Shown piece by piece: positions 10,042-37,370 of a DNA stretch of 37,370 nucleotides; positions within the stretch are counted from its first letter, which is position 1, and every line of letters begins with the position of its first letter. The notes beneath the pieces were generated by a model. It was given only the letters and a program-made list of their open reading frames with translations. It searched no databases and was not told where the DNA came from. The DNA is from a virus. The DNA is taken from positions 1 to 37,370 of IMG/VR virus record IMGVR_UViG_3300044614_002690. One strand, given 5' to 3'. The position numbers were made by a program, and so were the translations under genes.

Positions 10042-10877
10042 AGACCGCCGCCCGCAACGCCCCTTGGCGCTCCCTAGCCGCCCTCGCCCTGCTCCTCGTG
10101 GTCGCGCTCGGTAGTGGCTGCGCCACTACATCCGCGCCCGATACCGGCGCCCGCTGGTGGAACCCGCTCACATGGGGCAGCACCCGCGCCGCCACCGCCG
10201 CCGACCGCGCCGAGACCCGGCTCGACTCCGCCCGCGCCACCGAGACCACCGCCCGCACCGACCTCCTCCGGGCCGCTCAGCGCAGCGCCCACGAGGCCAG
10301 TCTCGCCCTCCTCTCCGCGCCGCCCTCGCGCCCGGTCGAGGTCGCGACCGAGGCCGCCCACGCCACCACCGCCGGCCTCGACCAAGCCCTCGGCGCGCTC
10401 GACGCCGCCACCCTCGCCCAGGTCCGCGCGCAGATCGCCGCCCTGCTCAGCGACAACGCCGCCCTCCGCGCCGACGGCGAGCGCTCGCGCGCCGAGCAGC
10501 GCACCCGCGACGCGCAGACCAGTCGCGCCCTCGCCGAGGCCACGCGCCGCACCGCCGACGCCGAGGCGGTGGCCGACACCGCCCGCGCCGATCTCCGCGC
10601 CGCCTACGACCGCGAGAGCGCCCTCGCCAACCAGCTCCGCCGGCAGCAATGGATCTCCGGCCTCACCACCACGGTGAGCGTGCTCGCCGGCCTCGCCGCG
10701 CTCGCCTACCGCGCCAACGCCTTCGGGCTGGCCGACGGCGTGGCGCGTGCTTTGGCCGATCTCCGCCGCCGCCAGCCCGGCGTGGCCGAGCTGACCACCA
10801 CCGCGCTTGATGCCGGCCTGAACCGCGCCGAGCAAACCACCGTCGCCCGCCTCGTCCAACGCCACCTCGCCTCCTGA
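10038..10877 (+). CDS. Coiled-coil lipoprotein, spanin-like candidate
   Basis: 279 aa. A signal peptide (residues 1-27) ends in a lipobox ending GSGC with Cys28. A long Ala/Arg/Glu coiled coil covers about residues 55-205, then one hydrophobic segment (TVSVLAGLAALAY, about 212-225). An outer-membrane lipid anchor plus periplasmic coiled coil plus inner-membrane span is the plan of unimolecular spanins, which fuse the two membranes at lysis; it is much longer than typical u-spanins. A GTAGTGGC-TGC-GCCACTAC hairpin sits exactly over the lipobox codons. Confidence 0.5.
   Translation: MKTAARNAPWRSLAALALLLVVALGSGCATTSAPDTGARWWNPLTWGSTRAATAADRAETRLDSARATETTARTDLLRAAQRSAHEASLALLSAPPSRPVEVATEAAHATTAGLDQALGALDAATLAQVRAQIAALLSDNAALRADGERSRAEQRTRDAQTSRALAEATRRTADAEAVADTARADLRAAYDRESALANQLRRQQWISGLTTTVSVLAGLAALAYRANAFGLADGVARALADLRRRQPGVAELTTTALDAGLNRAEQTTVARLVQRHLAS
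10111..10129. repeat. GTAGTG-type palindrome inside lipoprotein gene
   Basis: Perfect 8-bp arms GTAGTGGC and GCCACTAC with loop TGC. Related hairpins with arms GTAGTGC/GCACTAC and a 5-base loop lie at 33483-33501 and 36380-36398. Confidence 0.6.
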
Positions 10878-10887
10878 TTTTCCAACG

Positions 10888-11175
10888 ATGCCGCCGCTCA
10901 CCGAACGCACTCGATTTTCCCTCACCCTCGCGGCCGCGGTCGGCCTCGGCCTCGGCCTGCTCAAGGTCGGCTGGACCGGCGCGATGTTGCTCCGCGACAT
11001 CCGCGACGAGATCGGCAGCCTGCGCGGCGAGGTCAAGGCGCTGACGGAGGATCGCTGGACGCGCACCGACATGGAGCGATGGGCGAGCAAGTTGGAGCGC
11101 GCCAACCGCCAAACGGTGCCCCCGCTGGTGGTGCCAGAGGCGGCCCCGGTGCGTGGCGAAAAGCGAAGTGATTGA
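10888..11175 (+). CDS. Membrane protein with coiled coil (lysis-region, holin-like topology)
   Basis: 95 aa. One membrane segment at residues 10-35 (FSLTLAAAVGLGLGLLKVGWTG), then a charged coil (LRDIRDEIGSLRGEVKALTEDR) and a Pro-rich tail. It resembles small phage proteins that follow lysis genes, but no enzymatic motif exists. Its 3' end runs almost to the tRNA-Leu fragment of the attachment site; the sequence GCCCCGG at 11143-11149 inside the gene could pair with the tRNA 3' acceptor arm but is too far away for a real tRNA. Confidence 0.5.
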   Translation: MPPLTERTRFSLTLAAAVGLGLGLLKVGWTGAMLLRDIRDEIGSLRGEVKALTEDRWTRTDMERWASKLERANRQTVPPLVVPEAAPVRGEKRSD

Positions 11176-11190
11176 GGGAGAGCGGACAGC

Positions 11191-11251
11191 ACGGGACTTA
11201 AAATCCCTTGCCCGAAAGGGCGTGCGGGTTCGACTCCCGCCCGGGGCACCA
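11191..11251 (+). other. attP core: 3' portion of tRNA-Leu(UAA)
   Basis: From 11193 the sequence reads as a tRNA-Leu 3' part: anticodon stem GGGA/TCCC with loop CTTAAAA (anticodon TAA, 11199-11201), an extended variable arm (GCCC-GAAA-GGGC), a canonical T arm (GCGGG-TTCGACT-CCCGC, 11224-11240), acceptor strand CCGGGGC, discriminator A, and encoded CCA (11249-11251). The 5' acceptor and D arm are missing. A 3' tRNA fragment beside a tyrosine integrase is the standard identity segment that rebuilds the host tRNA gene on integration. Crossover probably lies in the anticodon arm, where the match begins. Confidence 0.88.
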
Positions 11252-11357
11252 CCTCTCAAGAGCGAAAAAAGGGCGCTGCCCTGCTGAGCCTCGGCCGCCC
11301 TTGCCTCACCAGTTTTTCCCACTTCGCCCCACTTTTAACCGCTTGCGACCCATACCA

Positions 11358-11375
11358 CCGGGACCAAAGTCCCGG
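11358..11375 (+). promoter_or_regulatory. Perfect hairpin just upstream of the integrase start
   Basis: Arms CCGGGAC (11358-11364) and GTCCCGG (11369-11375) with loop CAAA end two bases before the integrase ATG. It would hide the start codon region in RNA, or act as an operator or Xis/Int arm-site. No Shine-Dalgarno box is present. The interpretation is inference. Confidence 0.5.
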
Positions 11376-11377
11376 GC

Positions 11378-12412
11378 ATGGGCTCCGAACATTTTGGCCG
11401 CACGCGGCGTGACCGCGCTCTCTCCCCAGCCGAGCGGGCCGACGCTCGCGCGGCCCTCCAGATCCTCGTGGGCTCCGGTCTTTCCCTTGCCGCCGCCGCT
11501 CGGCGCGCGGTCGAGGGGCGGGCCGCTCTCCGCCGTATCAGCGTGGAGGATACGGCCGATCTTTTTTTGCGGGCCAAGCTGCCGCAGGTGCGCCCTCAGA
11601 CGTGGTCGTGGTTCGAGCAACGTCTGGGCCCCCTCCGTGACGCCTTCGGGACGCGCTCGATGGATGAGGTGAGCCGGGCGGATTTTCGCGCGTGGCTCAC
11701 CTCTCTCGCGGTAGGCGAGGCCACGCGCACGGGCTACGTGCGCGCTGCGCGTGCGCTGTGGCGCTGGGCCGCCGCTCAAGAACCTCCGCTCGCCGGGCCT
11801 CCCCCCACTTCGGGGCTCAGCGGGGCAATGAGCACCAAGGGGCGAACGGTGGGATTTCTCCGGGTGGAGGAGGCCGCGGCAATCTTGGCGGAGGCCTCGC
11901 CGTGGCGGCCTGCGCTCGCCCTGATGCTGTTTGCCGGGCTGCGGGTGGAAGAGCTGGCCGGGCAGGGCAAGCCGCCGCTCTTGTGGCGCGCGATCGATGT
12001 CGAGGGGCGCACCTTGCGGGTGCCGGCTGAGATCGCCAAGACCGGTCGGGCGCGCCTGCTCCAAGACCTGCCGCCGACGGTGTGGGCGTGGCTGTATCCA
12101 CGCGGTGGAGACGCGGAGCGGGTCTGCCCGGGGCAGTCGGTCAACGCGGTGCGGTGGGCCAAGGCGCGGGTGGAAAGACCGTGGCCGGCAAACGCTCTGC
12201 GTCACACGTTTGCGACCTACGCGGTCGCGCTGACTGGCGAGCCGGACCGGGTGGCGGGGTGGCTGGGGCACCTCGGGGGGAGCAACCTGCTGCATGGCCA
12301 CTACGCAGGCCTCGCGCGGCGGGCGGAGGGGGAGGCGTTTTTCGCGCTGCGGCCGGACCAATTTCGTGATTCCACGATATTGGTCCGGCACGAAAAAGCC
12401 CCGGCCGATTAG
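11378..12412 (+). CDS. int: Tyrosine site-specific integrase
   Basis: 344 aa. The catalytic domain has Arg I in LFAGLRVEEL (about residue 189), the second box NALRHTFATY (about 271-280), GH in AGWLGHLGG, and the tyrosine nucleophile in HGHYAGL (about residue 308). The usual HxLR box reads NALR, so the first histidine is replaced by asparagine, a tolerated variation in some family members. The N-terminal third is the core-binding domain. It lies 127 bp from the tRNA-Leu attP and converges on the repressor unit, with its TAG stop inside a terminator hairpin. Confidence 0.93.
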   Translation: MGSEHFGRTRRDRALSPAERADARAALQILVGSGLSLAAAARRAVEGRAALRRISVEDTADLFLRAKLPQVRPQTWSWFEQRLGPLRDAFGTRSMDEVSRADFRAWLTSLAVGEATRTGYVRAARALWRWAAAQEPPLAGPPPTSGLSGAMSTKGRTVGFLRVEEAAAILAEASPWRPALALMLFAGLRVEELAGQGKPPLLWRAIDVEGRTLRVPAEIAKTGRARLLQDLPPTVWAWLYPRGGDAERVCPGQSVNAVRWAKARVERPWPANALRHTFATYAVALTGEPDRVAGWLGHLGGSNLLHGHYAGLARRAEGEAFFALRPDQFRDSTILVRHEKAPAD

Positions 12413-16345: not shown

Positions 16346-18415
16346 ATGAACACGACCAAACATTCCCTGCCTTCCGTAGTCAGCGAGCCGCGCACCATCG
16401 CGGTAGCTCTGATCGACCGCTGTCCGCTTAATCCGCGCCTGATCTCCGACCAGGAGGCGGCCGACATCGGCCAGAGCCTGCGGGTGAAGGGGCAGGCGGT
16501 GCGCATCGAGGTGCGGCCGAGCCCGCGGGCGGAGGGCCGTTACGAGCTGGTCGATGGTGAGCGGCGGTGGCGCGGCGCGAAAATCGAGGGGCTCGAAACG
16601 CTGGAGGCGAACGTCGGCGAGTGGTCGGACGAGCAGGTCCTGCGTTTCGTGTGGATCACGGGCACGGAGTCGCGCCGGCTCTCGCTGCTGGAGGAGGCGA
16701 AGTGGGCGCGCACCGCGCTGGACAGCACGCCGGGGGCGACGCTGCACAGCGTGGCGGCGCTCATCGGGGTGGATGCGAACCTGCTGAGCAAGCGGCTCTG
16801 CCTGCTCGGTCTGGACGAGGCGACGCAAGCGGCGGTGCAGCGCGGGGCGCTGCCGTGGACCACGGCCTACGCGCTGGCGATGGTGCCGACGGCGGAGGCG
16901 CGGGCGGCGGCCTCGCGGCGGTGCCTGCACCCCGATGATGTGGAGGGGCCGCTCTCCTACCGCGACACGGTGGAGATGATCCGCACCGACTACGCGCGGT
17001 CGCTGCGGGGGCTCGCCTGGCTCAACGATCCCTTCCCCGAGGTGGAGGGCGCGGGGCCCTGCGCGAGCTGCCGCTATCGGGTGGGCAACAACCCGGACGA
17101 GTATGGCCAGATCAAGCTGCGCGGGGCGGACTGGTGCATGCGCCCGGAGTGTTTTGGGAAAAAAGAGGCGGCGCTGCGGGCGCGCTTGGCGGCTCGCGAG
17201 GGGGGCAAGCAGGCGCTGGCGCCGGAGGTCAACGCCGAGATTTTCCGGCCGGGGAGCGAGGAGCCGGAGGCGGCGAGCGGCTACGCGCTGGCGGCGAGGC
17301 CGATCCCGCGCGACCTGATCAAGGATGAGGTGGCGGCGAACCGCGCGCCGACCTTTGCCGAAGTATCGCCGGCGGCGCCGATCTACATCGCGACCAACGG
17401 CGCCGGGCGCTGCGTGGACGTGGTGCGGGTGGCGGAGGCGGTGGCGGGCACGGCGGAGCCGGCGATCTTCCGGGCCGAGGTGGTGGCGCGCTACGGCATC
17501 CGCAAAAACGCCGTAGCGCAGACTCACGAGGGCTGCGACGGGGAGTCGCTGACCACGCCGGCGCTGGCGGAGGCGGTGAGCAAGGGCGAGCCGAAGCCCG
17601 GCAGCCTTGCGGCGGAGGAGAAGCGCAAAAAGAGCACGGAAAAGGCGGCGGAGAAAAACAAGGCGAAGAAACTGCGCGCCTGCGCGGACTGGCTGCTGGA
17701 GCTGCACAATGCGCGGACCTCGCCGAGCAAGCCGGAGGGCTACGAATACGCGCTCGTGTCGCTGCGGTGGGAGCACGTGCTGCGGAGCGTGCCGGACGAG
17801 GACGCGCTGCTGGTGCTGCGCGCGCTGAGCGAGGAGGACCCGGCGAAGGGGCAGACGGCGAAGAGCGCCCTGGCGCAGTTTGTCGCGGGCATCGGCGGGG
17901 CGGAGGAGCTGGCCTCGGTGGTCGACGCGCTGCTGATCGCGGGCGCGCTGCGGGTGCAGGGCGTGGAGGCGCCGTGGGTGGTGGAGTGGCACCGCCACCT
18001 CGTGCTCACGGTGGAGGAGGCGCGAAAGCGGCAGGCGGGCGCGGAAGATGGGCAGGGCGAGGACGGGGCCTCGGGTGCGCTCGATGAGGAGGGCAACGCG
18101 GAGGCGGAGGCTGGCGACGCAGACGCGGCGAGGCCGGCGGTCGATGGGGAGGCTATGGTGAGCGCGGAGACGCTGGCGCGGGTGGAGCGGTTGCTCGACG
18201 CGGCGTTGCCGGGCATGAGCAGTTCGGCGCGGCCGAAGATCCTCGGCAACTACATCAAGCGCGCAGCGGGAGAAAGGAAGGCCGCTGAAGAGCTGACCGA
18301 GGCGGAGGCGCTCAAAATCATCGCCGCTCTGGAGAGCGCGCGGAAGGCCAAGACTGCGCCGGTCGTGGCGGTGCCGGTCGCGACGGCGGCGGAGATGGCT
18401 GAGAGCGAGGGCTAA
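16346..18415 (+). CDS. ParB/Spo0J-like protein
   Basis: 689 aa. The N-terminal ParB domain has IDRCPLNPR and the conserved phosphate-binding box GERRWRGA near residues 71-78, then an HTH region (SVAALIGVDANLLSKRLCLL). A Cys cluster CASC...CMRPECF at about residues 239-270 is common in phage/plasmid ParB-like proteins. The long C-terminal half is Ala/Glu-rich and low in complexity near 540-590. No ParA partner is present, so partition as a plasmid-prophage is not supported; the tRNA attP indicates chromosomal integration. A replication or host-chromatin role is more likely. Confidence 0.75.
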   Translation: MNTTKHSLPSVVSEPRTIAVALIDRCPLNPRLISDQEAADIGQSLRVKGQAVRIEVRPSPRAEGRYELVDGERRWRGAKIEGLETLEANVGEWSDEQVLRFVWITGTESRRLSLLEEAKWARTALDSTPGATLHSVAALIGVDANLLSKRLCLLGLDEATQAAVQRGALPWTTAYALAMVPTAEARAAASRRCLHPDDVEGPLSYRDTVEMIRTDYARSLRGLAWLNDPFPEVEGAGPCASCRYRVGNNPDEYGQIKLRGADWCMRPECFGKKEAALRARLAAREGGKQALAPEVNAEIFRPGSEEPEAASGYALAARPIPRDLIKDEVAANRAPTFAEVSPAAPIYIATNGAGRCVDVVRVAEAVAGTAEPAIFRAEVVARYGIRKNAVAQTHEGCDGESLTTPALAEAVSKGEPKPGSLAAEEKRKKSTEKAAEKNKAKKLRACADWLLELHNARTSPSKPEGYEYALVSLRWEHVLRSVPDEDALLVLRALSEEDPAKGQTAKSALAQFVAGIGGAEELASVVDALLIAGALRVQGVEAPWVVEWHRHLVLTVEEARKRQAGAEDGQGEDGASGALDEEGNAEAEAGDADAARPAVDGEAMVSAETLARVERLLDAALPGMSSSARPKILGNYIKRAAGERKAAEELTEAEALKIIAALESARKAKTAPVVAVPVATAAEMAESEG

Positions 18416-36981: not shown

Positions 36982-37329
36982 ATGCCCTCCTTCTCCTCTG
37001 CTCAGGCCCGCCGCTTCGCCGCGCAGGGCGCCCGCCAGGGCGCTGCGGCCAACGCCAACGCCTCCGCCACCTACGCCGGACGCACGCTCTGCGTGTCGCG
37101 CACCGGCCTCGACCACCGGCGCGCGGTCGAGGCCGGCCCTTTCGAGGGCATGCCCGAGGCCACGATCCGCGTTTGCGCCGCCGACCACCCGTGGTTCTTG
37201 TCCGACGAGGCCGCCGCCCGCGCCGCCGTGGGCCAGTCGCTGACCCTCGACGGGCAGCTCCTCAAGATCGCCACCGTGAAGCGCCTCCCCCTGGCCGGCG
37301 AGATCGTGCTCACCCTCGCGAAGGCGTAG
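36982..37329 (+). CDS. Head-tail connector/completion protein
   Basis: 115 aa: basic N-terminus (SAQARRFAAQGARQGAAANA), C-terminal beta region with HPWFLSDEAAARAAVGQSLT and LLKIATVKRLPLAGEIVLTL. The last 86 bp are repeated at the window start. It lies after the decoration candidate and before the tail completion candidate on the circle, so it likely acts at the head-tail joint (lambda FII type). Assignment by order. Confidence 0.5.
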   Translation: MPSFSSAQARRFAAQGARQGAAANANASATYAGRTLCVSRTGLDHRRAVEAGPFEGMPEATIRVCAADHPWFLSDEAAARAAVGQSLTLDGQLLKIATVKRLPLAGEIVLTLAKA

Positions 37330-37370
37330 CGGAGCGCGCCGCACTCGACCTTTTGACCTTCGACCTTCCG
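37244..37370. repeat. Terminal direct repeat, right copy
   Basis: Identical to 1-127; see the left copy. Removing it gives a 37,243-bp circle in which 36982-37329 continues without break into 146-844. Confidence 0.93.

Follow-up and report, generated by a model that had tools for sequence, protein, structure and literature searches.

An attP core with a tRNA-Leu(UAA) 3' segment and a probable second core-type site in the integrase leader of a phage family

We analysed a viral DNA record of 37,370 nt (IMG/VR record IMGVR_UViG_3300044614_002690, hereafter the window) together with nine relatives obtained from IMG/VR scans, to which a later N-terminal scan added none. The 3' part of a tRNA gene lies upstream of the integrase gene, and the anticodon-stem arms of this segment recur, around a different spacer, just before the integrase start codon. 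The best explanation, which we consider probable, is that these phages carry an attP core plus a second, non-recombining core-type site in the integrase leader that would be used for autorepression, with binding and repression deduced here from sequence comparison. The features of the region are as follows.

11193..11251, + strand: attP core, from the tRNA-Leu(UAA) anticodon stem to CCA (direct reading; equivalent in nine relatives)
11193-11196, + strand: GGGA, inner four bases of the 5' strand of the anticodon stem (direct reading)
11197..11203, + strand: anticodon loop CTTAAAA, presumed 7-bp crossover (overlap) region, with arms GGGA and TCCC
11199-11201, + strand: anticodon TAA (direct reading)
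11204-11208, + strand: 3' strand of the anticodon stem, TCCCT (direct reading)
11209-11223, + strand: variable arm GCCC-GAAA-GGGC (direct reading)
11224-11240, + strand: T arm GCGGG-TTCGACT-CCCGC, perfect (direct reading)
11241-11247, + strand: 3' strand of the acceptor stem, CCGGGGC (direct reading)
11248, + strand: discriminator A
11249-11251, + strand: encoded CCA
11252..11357, + strand: presumed P' arm between the tRNA segment and the leader repeat, with putative arm-type integrase sites (by analogy with lambda-type anatomy)
11358..11375, + strand: CCGGGA-CCAAAG-TCCCGG, copied arms of the att core around a 6-nt spacer, proposed operator (from sequence)
11378..12412, + strand: tyrosine integrase, 344 aa (phrog_1, PDB profiles, Foldseek)

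Direct reading of 11193-11251 bears out the initial annotation, which had placed the 3' part of a tRNA-Leu(UAA), including CCA, at attP, and supports its view that the identity block running from the anticodon loop to CCA is long enough to rebuild the host tRNA. The right-hand limit given there, 11251, stands, whereas the tRNA-like block begins at 11193, two bases further in than the annotated 11191, because the C at 11192 is unpaired with T11208. The segment lies 126 nt 5' of the integrase gene and in the same orientation, and there is one tRNA-like copy per record in the window and its relatives. Its structure, together with an equivalent segment at the corresponding position in each of nine relatives, excludes a chance origin. 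Positions 1-127 are repeated exactly at 37244-37370; this 127-nt terminal direct repeat (genome of ~37,243 bp) indicates that the record is circular and that the tRNA segment is attP. On its own, this attP is textbook. As part of the explanation preferred here, and held with the same confidence as the whole, the phage would be temperate and would insert into the host tRNA-Leu(UAA) gene without breaking the tRNA. Several attP among the ten phages have one or more mismatched outer bases in the 5' strand of the anticodon stem, which places the left limit of identity within the stem and fits a crossover in the 7-bp loop; tRNA-targeting tyrosine integrases are known to use this loop as their overlap region (PMC8371274). 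An antisense ORF (10074-11252, - strand), starting MVPRAGVEPARPFGQGILSPVL, translates the tRNA segment and is likely a spurious gene call.

The segment could in principle be part of a complete tRNA whose 5' half is spliced on, as the initial annotation had warned, or displaced, and we give this almost no credence. A sub-threshold tRNA-Sec alignment, the sole tRNA-type covariance-model match in the window, uses GCCCCGG at 11143 as a 5' acceptor strand and requires a long insert. However, this heptamer occurs at chance frequency (31 in the window against 27 expected), and the copy at 11143 falls within an ORF and has no visible counterpart in the relative L002. The displaced half was rejected on these grounds; neither ARAGORN nor Rfam at the gathering threshold found a complete tRNA in the window. 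In tRNA-dependent lysogeny, the core is short, the host tRNA is broken and a full tRNA is encoded by the phage (PMC10865867); the window segment is long and a full tRNA gene is absent from the window, which does not conform to this pattern.

The window protein is a tyrosine recombinase by fold and catalytic residues. It matches the phrog_1 integrase family (E 4e-24), and its profile matches to PDB chains include XerC-like, XerD and XerA proteins; the match to Pfam Phage_integrase fell under the cut-off (E 0.002). An AlphaFold2 model (mean pLDDT 79.8, pTM 0.54) had the Tn1549 integrase, XerA and the integron and lambda integrases as its best Foldseek matches, at low TM-scores (~0.3), probably because of the domain arrangement. 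R189, K221, R275, H298 and Y309 are invariant across the ten integrases. The histidine of the HxxR motif (box II, residue 272) is replaced by N in the window and L002 and by D in the other eight. The window also encodes, at 16346-18415, a ParB-like protein (ParB_N, HTH_ParB).

The ten integrases form one supported group in the tree, over which the target tRNAs are scattered and whose internal branching is for the most part unresolved. All ten phages have a class-II tRNA 3' segment at the same place, ending 113-176 nt before the integrase ATG. The possibility, raised in the initial annotation, that related prophages integrate elsewhere was partly realised: the targets differ (Leu UAA, CAA or UAG and Ser CGA), each with its own segment. 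As every relative carries the segment of its own target, it is the segment, not kinship, that predicts the insertion site. In L009, a complete tRNA-Ser(CGA) lies directly 5' of the integrase gene, as expected of the attL product; the attR was not present in the L009 record, and the rebuilt tRNA of an integrated form was observed in this relative alone, not for the window phage. This complete tRNA stands upstream of the leader copy, which implies that crossover takes place at the tRNA and not at the leader. The tRNA-Leu(UAG) segment of L028 (~2300-2358) has no encoded CCA, so the tRNA gene of its host probably lacks CCA as well. In L007, L011 and L023, a clear intrinsic terminator-like hairpin with a T-run directly follows the tRNA segment, and it seems that the rebuilt tRNA gene receives its terminator from these phages; no intrinsic terminator after the segment was found on the + strand of the window, and among the ten phages it was clear only in these three.

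The second component of the proposed system, which the earlier reader of the sequence had missed, is the inverted repeat in the integrase leader. In the window, only 2 nt separate it from the integrase ATG, and it reproduces the arms of the anticodon stem while the loop differs. A search of all 37,370 nt for GGGA-N5..8-TCCC gave just two sites, at 11193 and 11360, with 3.7 occurrences expected by chance anywhere in the 37 kb and a chance of ~0.7% for a 70-nt leader. Across the available sequence, the arm pair was present exactly twice, in the att core and in the leader, in the window, L002, L004, L007, L009, L011 and L023. In 10/10 phages, the leader repeat begins 18-38 nt 5' of the integrase ATG, and the 7-base crossover is replaced by a 6-nt spacer in seven of them and by an unrelated 7-nt spacer in three, never by the anticodon loop. 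The targets, read from the segments, and the leader repeats are listed below.

Window, Leu(UAA): CGGGA-CCAAAG-TCCCG
L002, Leu(UAA): AGAGA-CTAAAG-TCTTT
L021, Leu(UAA): AGGGA-CAGGAA-TCCTC
L004, Leu(CAA): GTAGA-CTCGAA-TCTAC
L018, Leu(UAG): TTAGA-TTTCCG-TCTGG
L028, Leu(UAG): CGAGA-CGACAA-TCTCG
L007, Ser(CGA): CCTGA-TTGATAG-TCAGG
L009, Ser(CGA): CCTGA-CGCATT-TCAGG
L011, Ser(CGA): CCTGA-CGAGAGG-TCAGG
L023, Ser(CGA): CTTGA-TTCCGAG-TCAGG

Two of these copies, in L018 and L021, are degenerate (8 of 10 positions). In most relatives, the left half-sites have GTGTG or a similar stretch outside the five tRNA-matching bases, irrespective of the tRNA, and this stretch is possibly a tRNA-independent part of the integrase site. 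The L007 leader (~1485-1540) has further half-site copies, TCAGGTGTGC and GCACACCTGA, besides the proposed operator. No sigma-70-like promoter was found near the window leader; like the two degenerate copies, this counts against the operator reading.

The correspondence between leader arms and target tRNA was scored by matching every leader to the right-hand stem pentamer of the phage's own tRNA and to alternative pentamers. The arms of the phage's own tRNA scored 8-10 of 10 in all ten leaders, with a Fisher p of 1.6e-12 against all pentamers and of 1.1e-6 against the 64 pentamers starting with TC, as all real ones do; the control region, 40 nt 5' of the leader, gave p 0.98. When the tRNAs were permuted among phages, the observed sum was reached in 8 of 200,000 permutations, and in 1-2 of 720 with one leader per stem class; the Fisher and permutation tests treat the phages as independent, and the more cautious figure is that of the class-level test. 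Two members had already shown the repeat when the remaining eight were obtained, so that only those eight are independent of the hypothesis. For the window by itself, p was 0.05 against all pentamers and 0.16 against those starting with TC, a modest match; the leader copy is suggestive in the window alone and convincing in the ten-phage family, as judged by these sequence comparisons. To see whether such copies are general among integrases, 60 distant loci were scanned automatically; three candidate tRNA arms emerged, of which two, in L062 and L083, are clear Ser(CGA) arms, and none of the three had a leader copy above background, a small control.

A tyrosine recombinase has to recognise the arms of its site, and the crossover spacer must match between partners. 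In the proposed mechanism, the integrase would exchange strands across the 7-bp anticodon loop while bound through the inverted anticodon-stem arms, and the phage 3' part would leave attL with a restored tRNA, immediately 5' of the integrase gene and reading toward it. The leader repeat would be a dedicated core-type site in which the arms recognised by the integrase are kept; because the integrase recognises those arms, they would change whenever the target tRNA changes. The spacer, altered in length or sequence, would let the leader bind integrase without recombining, which would stop recombination between attP and the leader. When integrase is abundant, its occupancy of the leader site would then repress integrase expression, a negative autoregulation. 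There is precedent for integrase autorepression in KplE1 IntS, with att sites overlapping the promoter (PMC2951348), and in E. coli 536, whose IntI represses the promoter of its own gene (PMC7286903). The broader proposal, an integrase clade with a dedicated "dead" copy of the crossover site as operator, co-evolving with each switch of tRNA target, strikes us as evenly balanced between right and wrong.

Two other readings of the leader repeat were considered. The attP might be ordinary and the repeat an accessory core-type site of the intasome, required for recombination and not a regulator. Haemophilus phage HP1, another phage with a tRNA-Leu(UAA) segment in attP, has repeated GGTATTTAAA elements there and extra integrase sites outside the crossover; the leader is, moreover, within lambda-type arm distance of the core. 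However, the repeat starts 18-38 nt before the ATG in every phage, while the distance from the tRNA segment to the ATG varies over 113-176 nt. A position tied to the start codon and not to the core is as expected of an operator, and we regard an accessory site as unlikely.

Control at the RNA level, in which an mRNA hairpin before the AUG would limit translation, perhaps bound by integrase or as a mimic of the anticodon arm, seems to us slightly less likely again. Hairpins are predicted in most leaders, and on the mRNA strand five of the six positions that break the palindrome could still pair as G-U, although these G-U versus A-C counts (5:1) are few. Nothing in a plain hairpin would call for a stem of the same sequence as that of the target tRNA, however, and tRNA mimicry is improbable given that the loop and the anticodon are not retained. 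A DNA operator built on the arms of the att core remains our preferred reading.

The initial annotation also expected the segment to help name the host, which was not achieved: the exact 59-nt segment was missing from 84,980 species genomes. Near-identical records aside, a 48-nt part of it had no match in IMG/VR, and neither the alignment of the integrase against bacterial genome contigs nor a plasmid search gave a match. The sole phage match was a weak one to an Akkermansia phage integrase, from which Verrucomicrobiota is only a weak lead as host group.

If the dead-copy operator exists, the specificities of recombination and self-repression would stay locked together, and target switching would need protein, attP and operator to change together, which bears on host-tRNA changes. 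The leader copy may also be a natural record of integrase specificity. The arms are present twice per phage, with one copy under the constraint of the host tRNA and the other not, so that the bases truly read by the protein could be inferred. The integrase leader may also help to predict the integration sites of metagenomic phages.

One of the closest known arrangements is the argW-intS region of KplE1 (CPS-53) in E. coli, where the tRNA also comes first, co-oriented with the integrase, and attL lies upstream of the integrase gene. Its integrase is negatively autoregulated (PMC2951348), as proposed here, but through att sites that overlap the promoter, whereas the window has putative core-type operator arms in the leader. 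No copy of the att core was found in the KplE1 intS leader, nor of the core in the int leader of satellite phage P4, by an ungapped search for longer copies, which, given that spacers differ, has less power than the arm-plus-spacer test. P4, which targets a tRNA-Leu gene (leuX), likewise has its att core upstream of int and co-oriented, with arm repeats around the int start, but its 20-bp core is without an anticodon arm. We found no published description of a leader copy of an att core in the open-access literature, where older integrase papers are sparse, and its novelty over known integrase autoregulation is provisional. HP1 shares an attP with a tRNA-Leu(UAA) 3' segment that includes the anticodon loop and CCA, but this attP lies 3' of int and hence outside the integrase leader. 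Finally, MrpR/SroF of SPbeta-type phages also present a tyrosine-recombinase-like fold in the role of a DNA-binding regulator, as indicated by weak Foldseek matches and PDB titles; these are dedicated repressors, whereas the window protein retains its catalytic residues R, K, R, H and Y.
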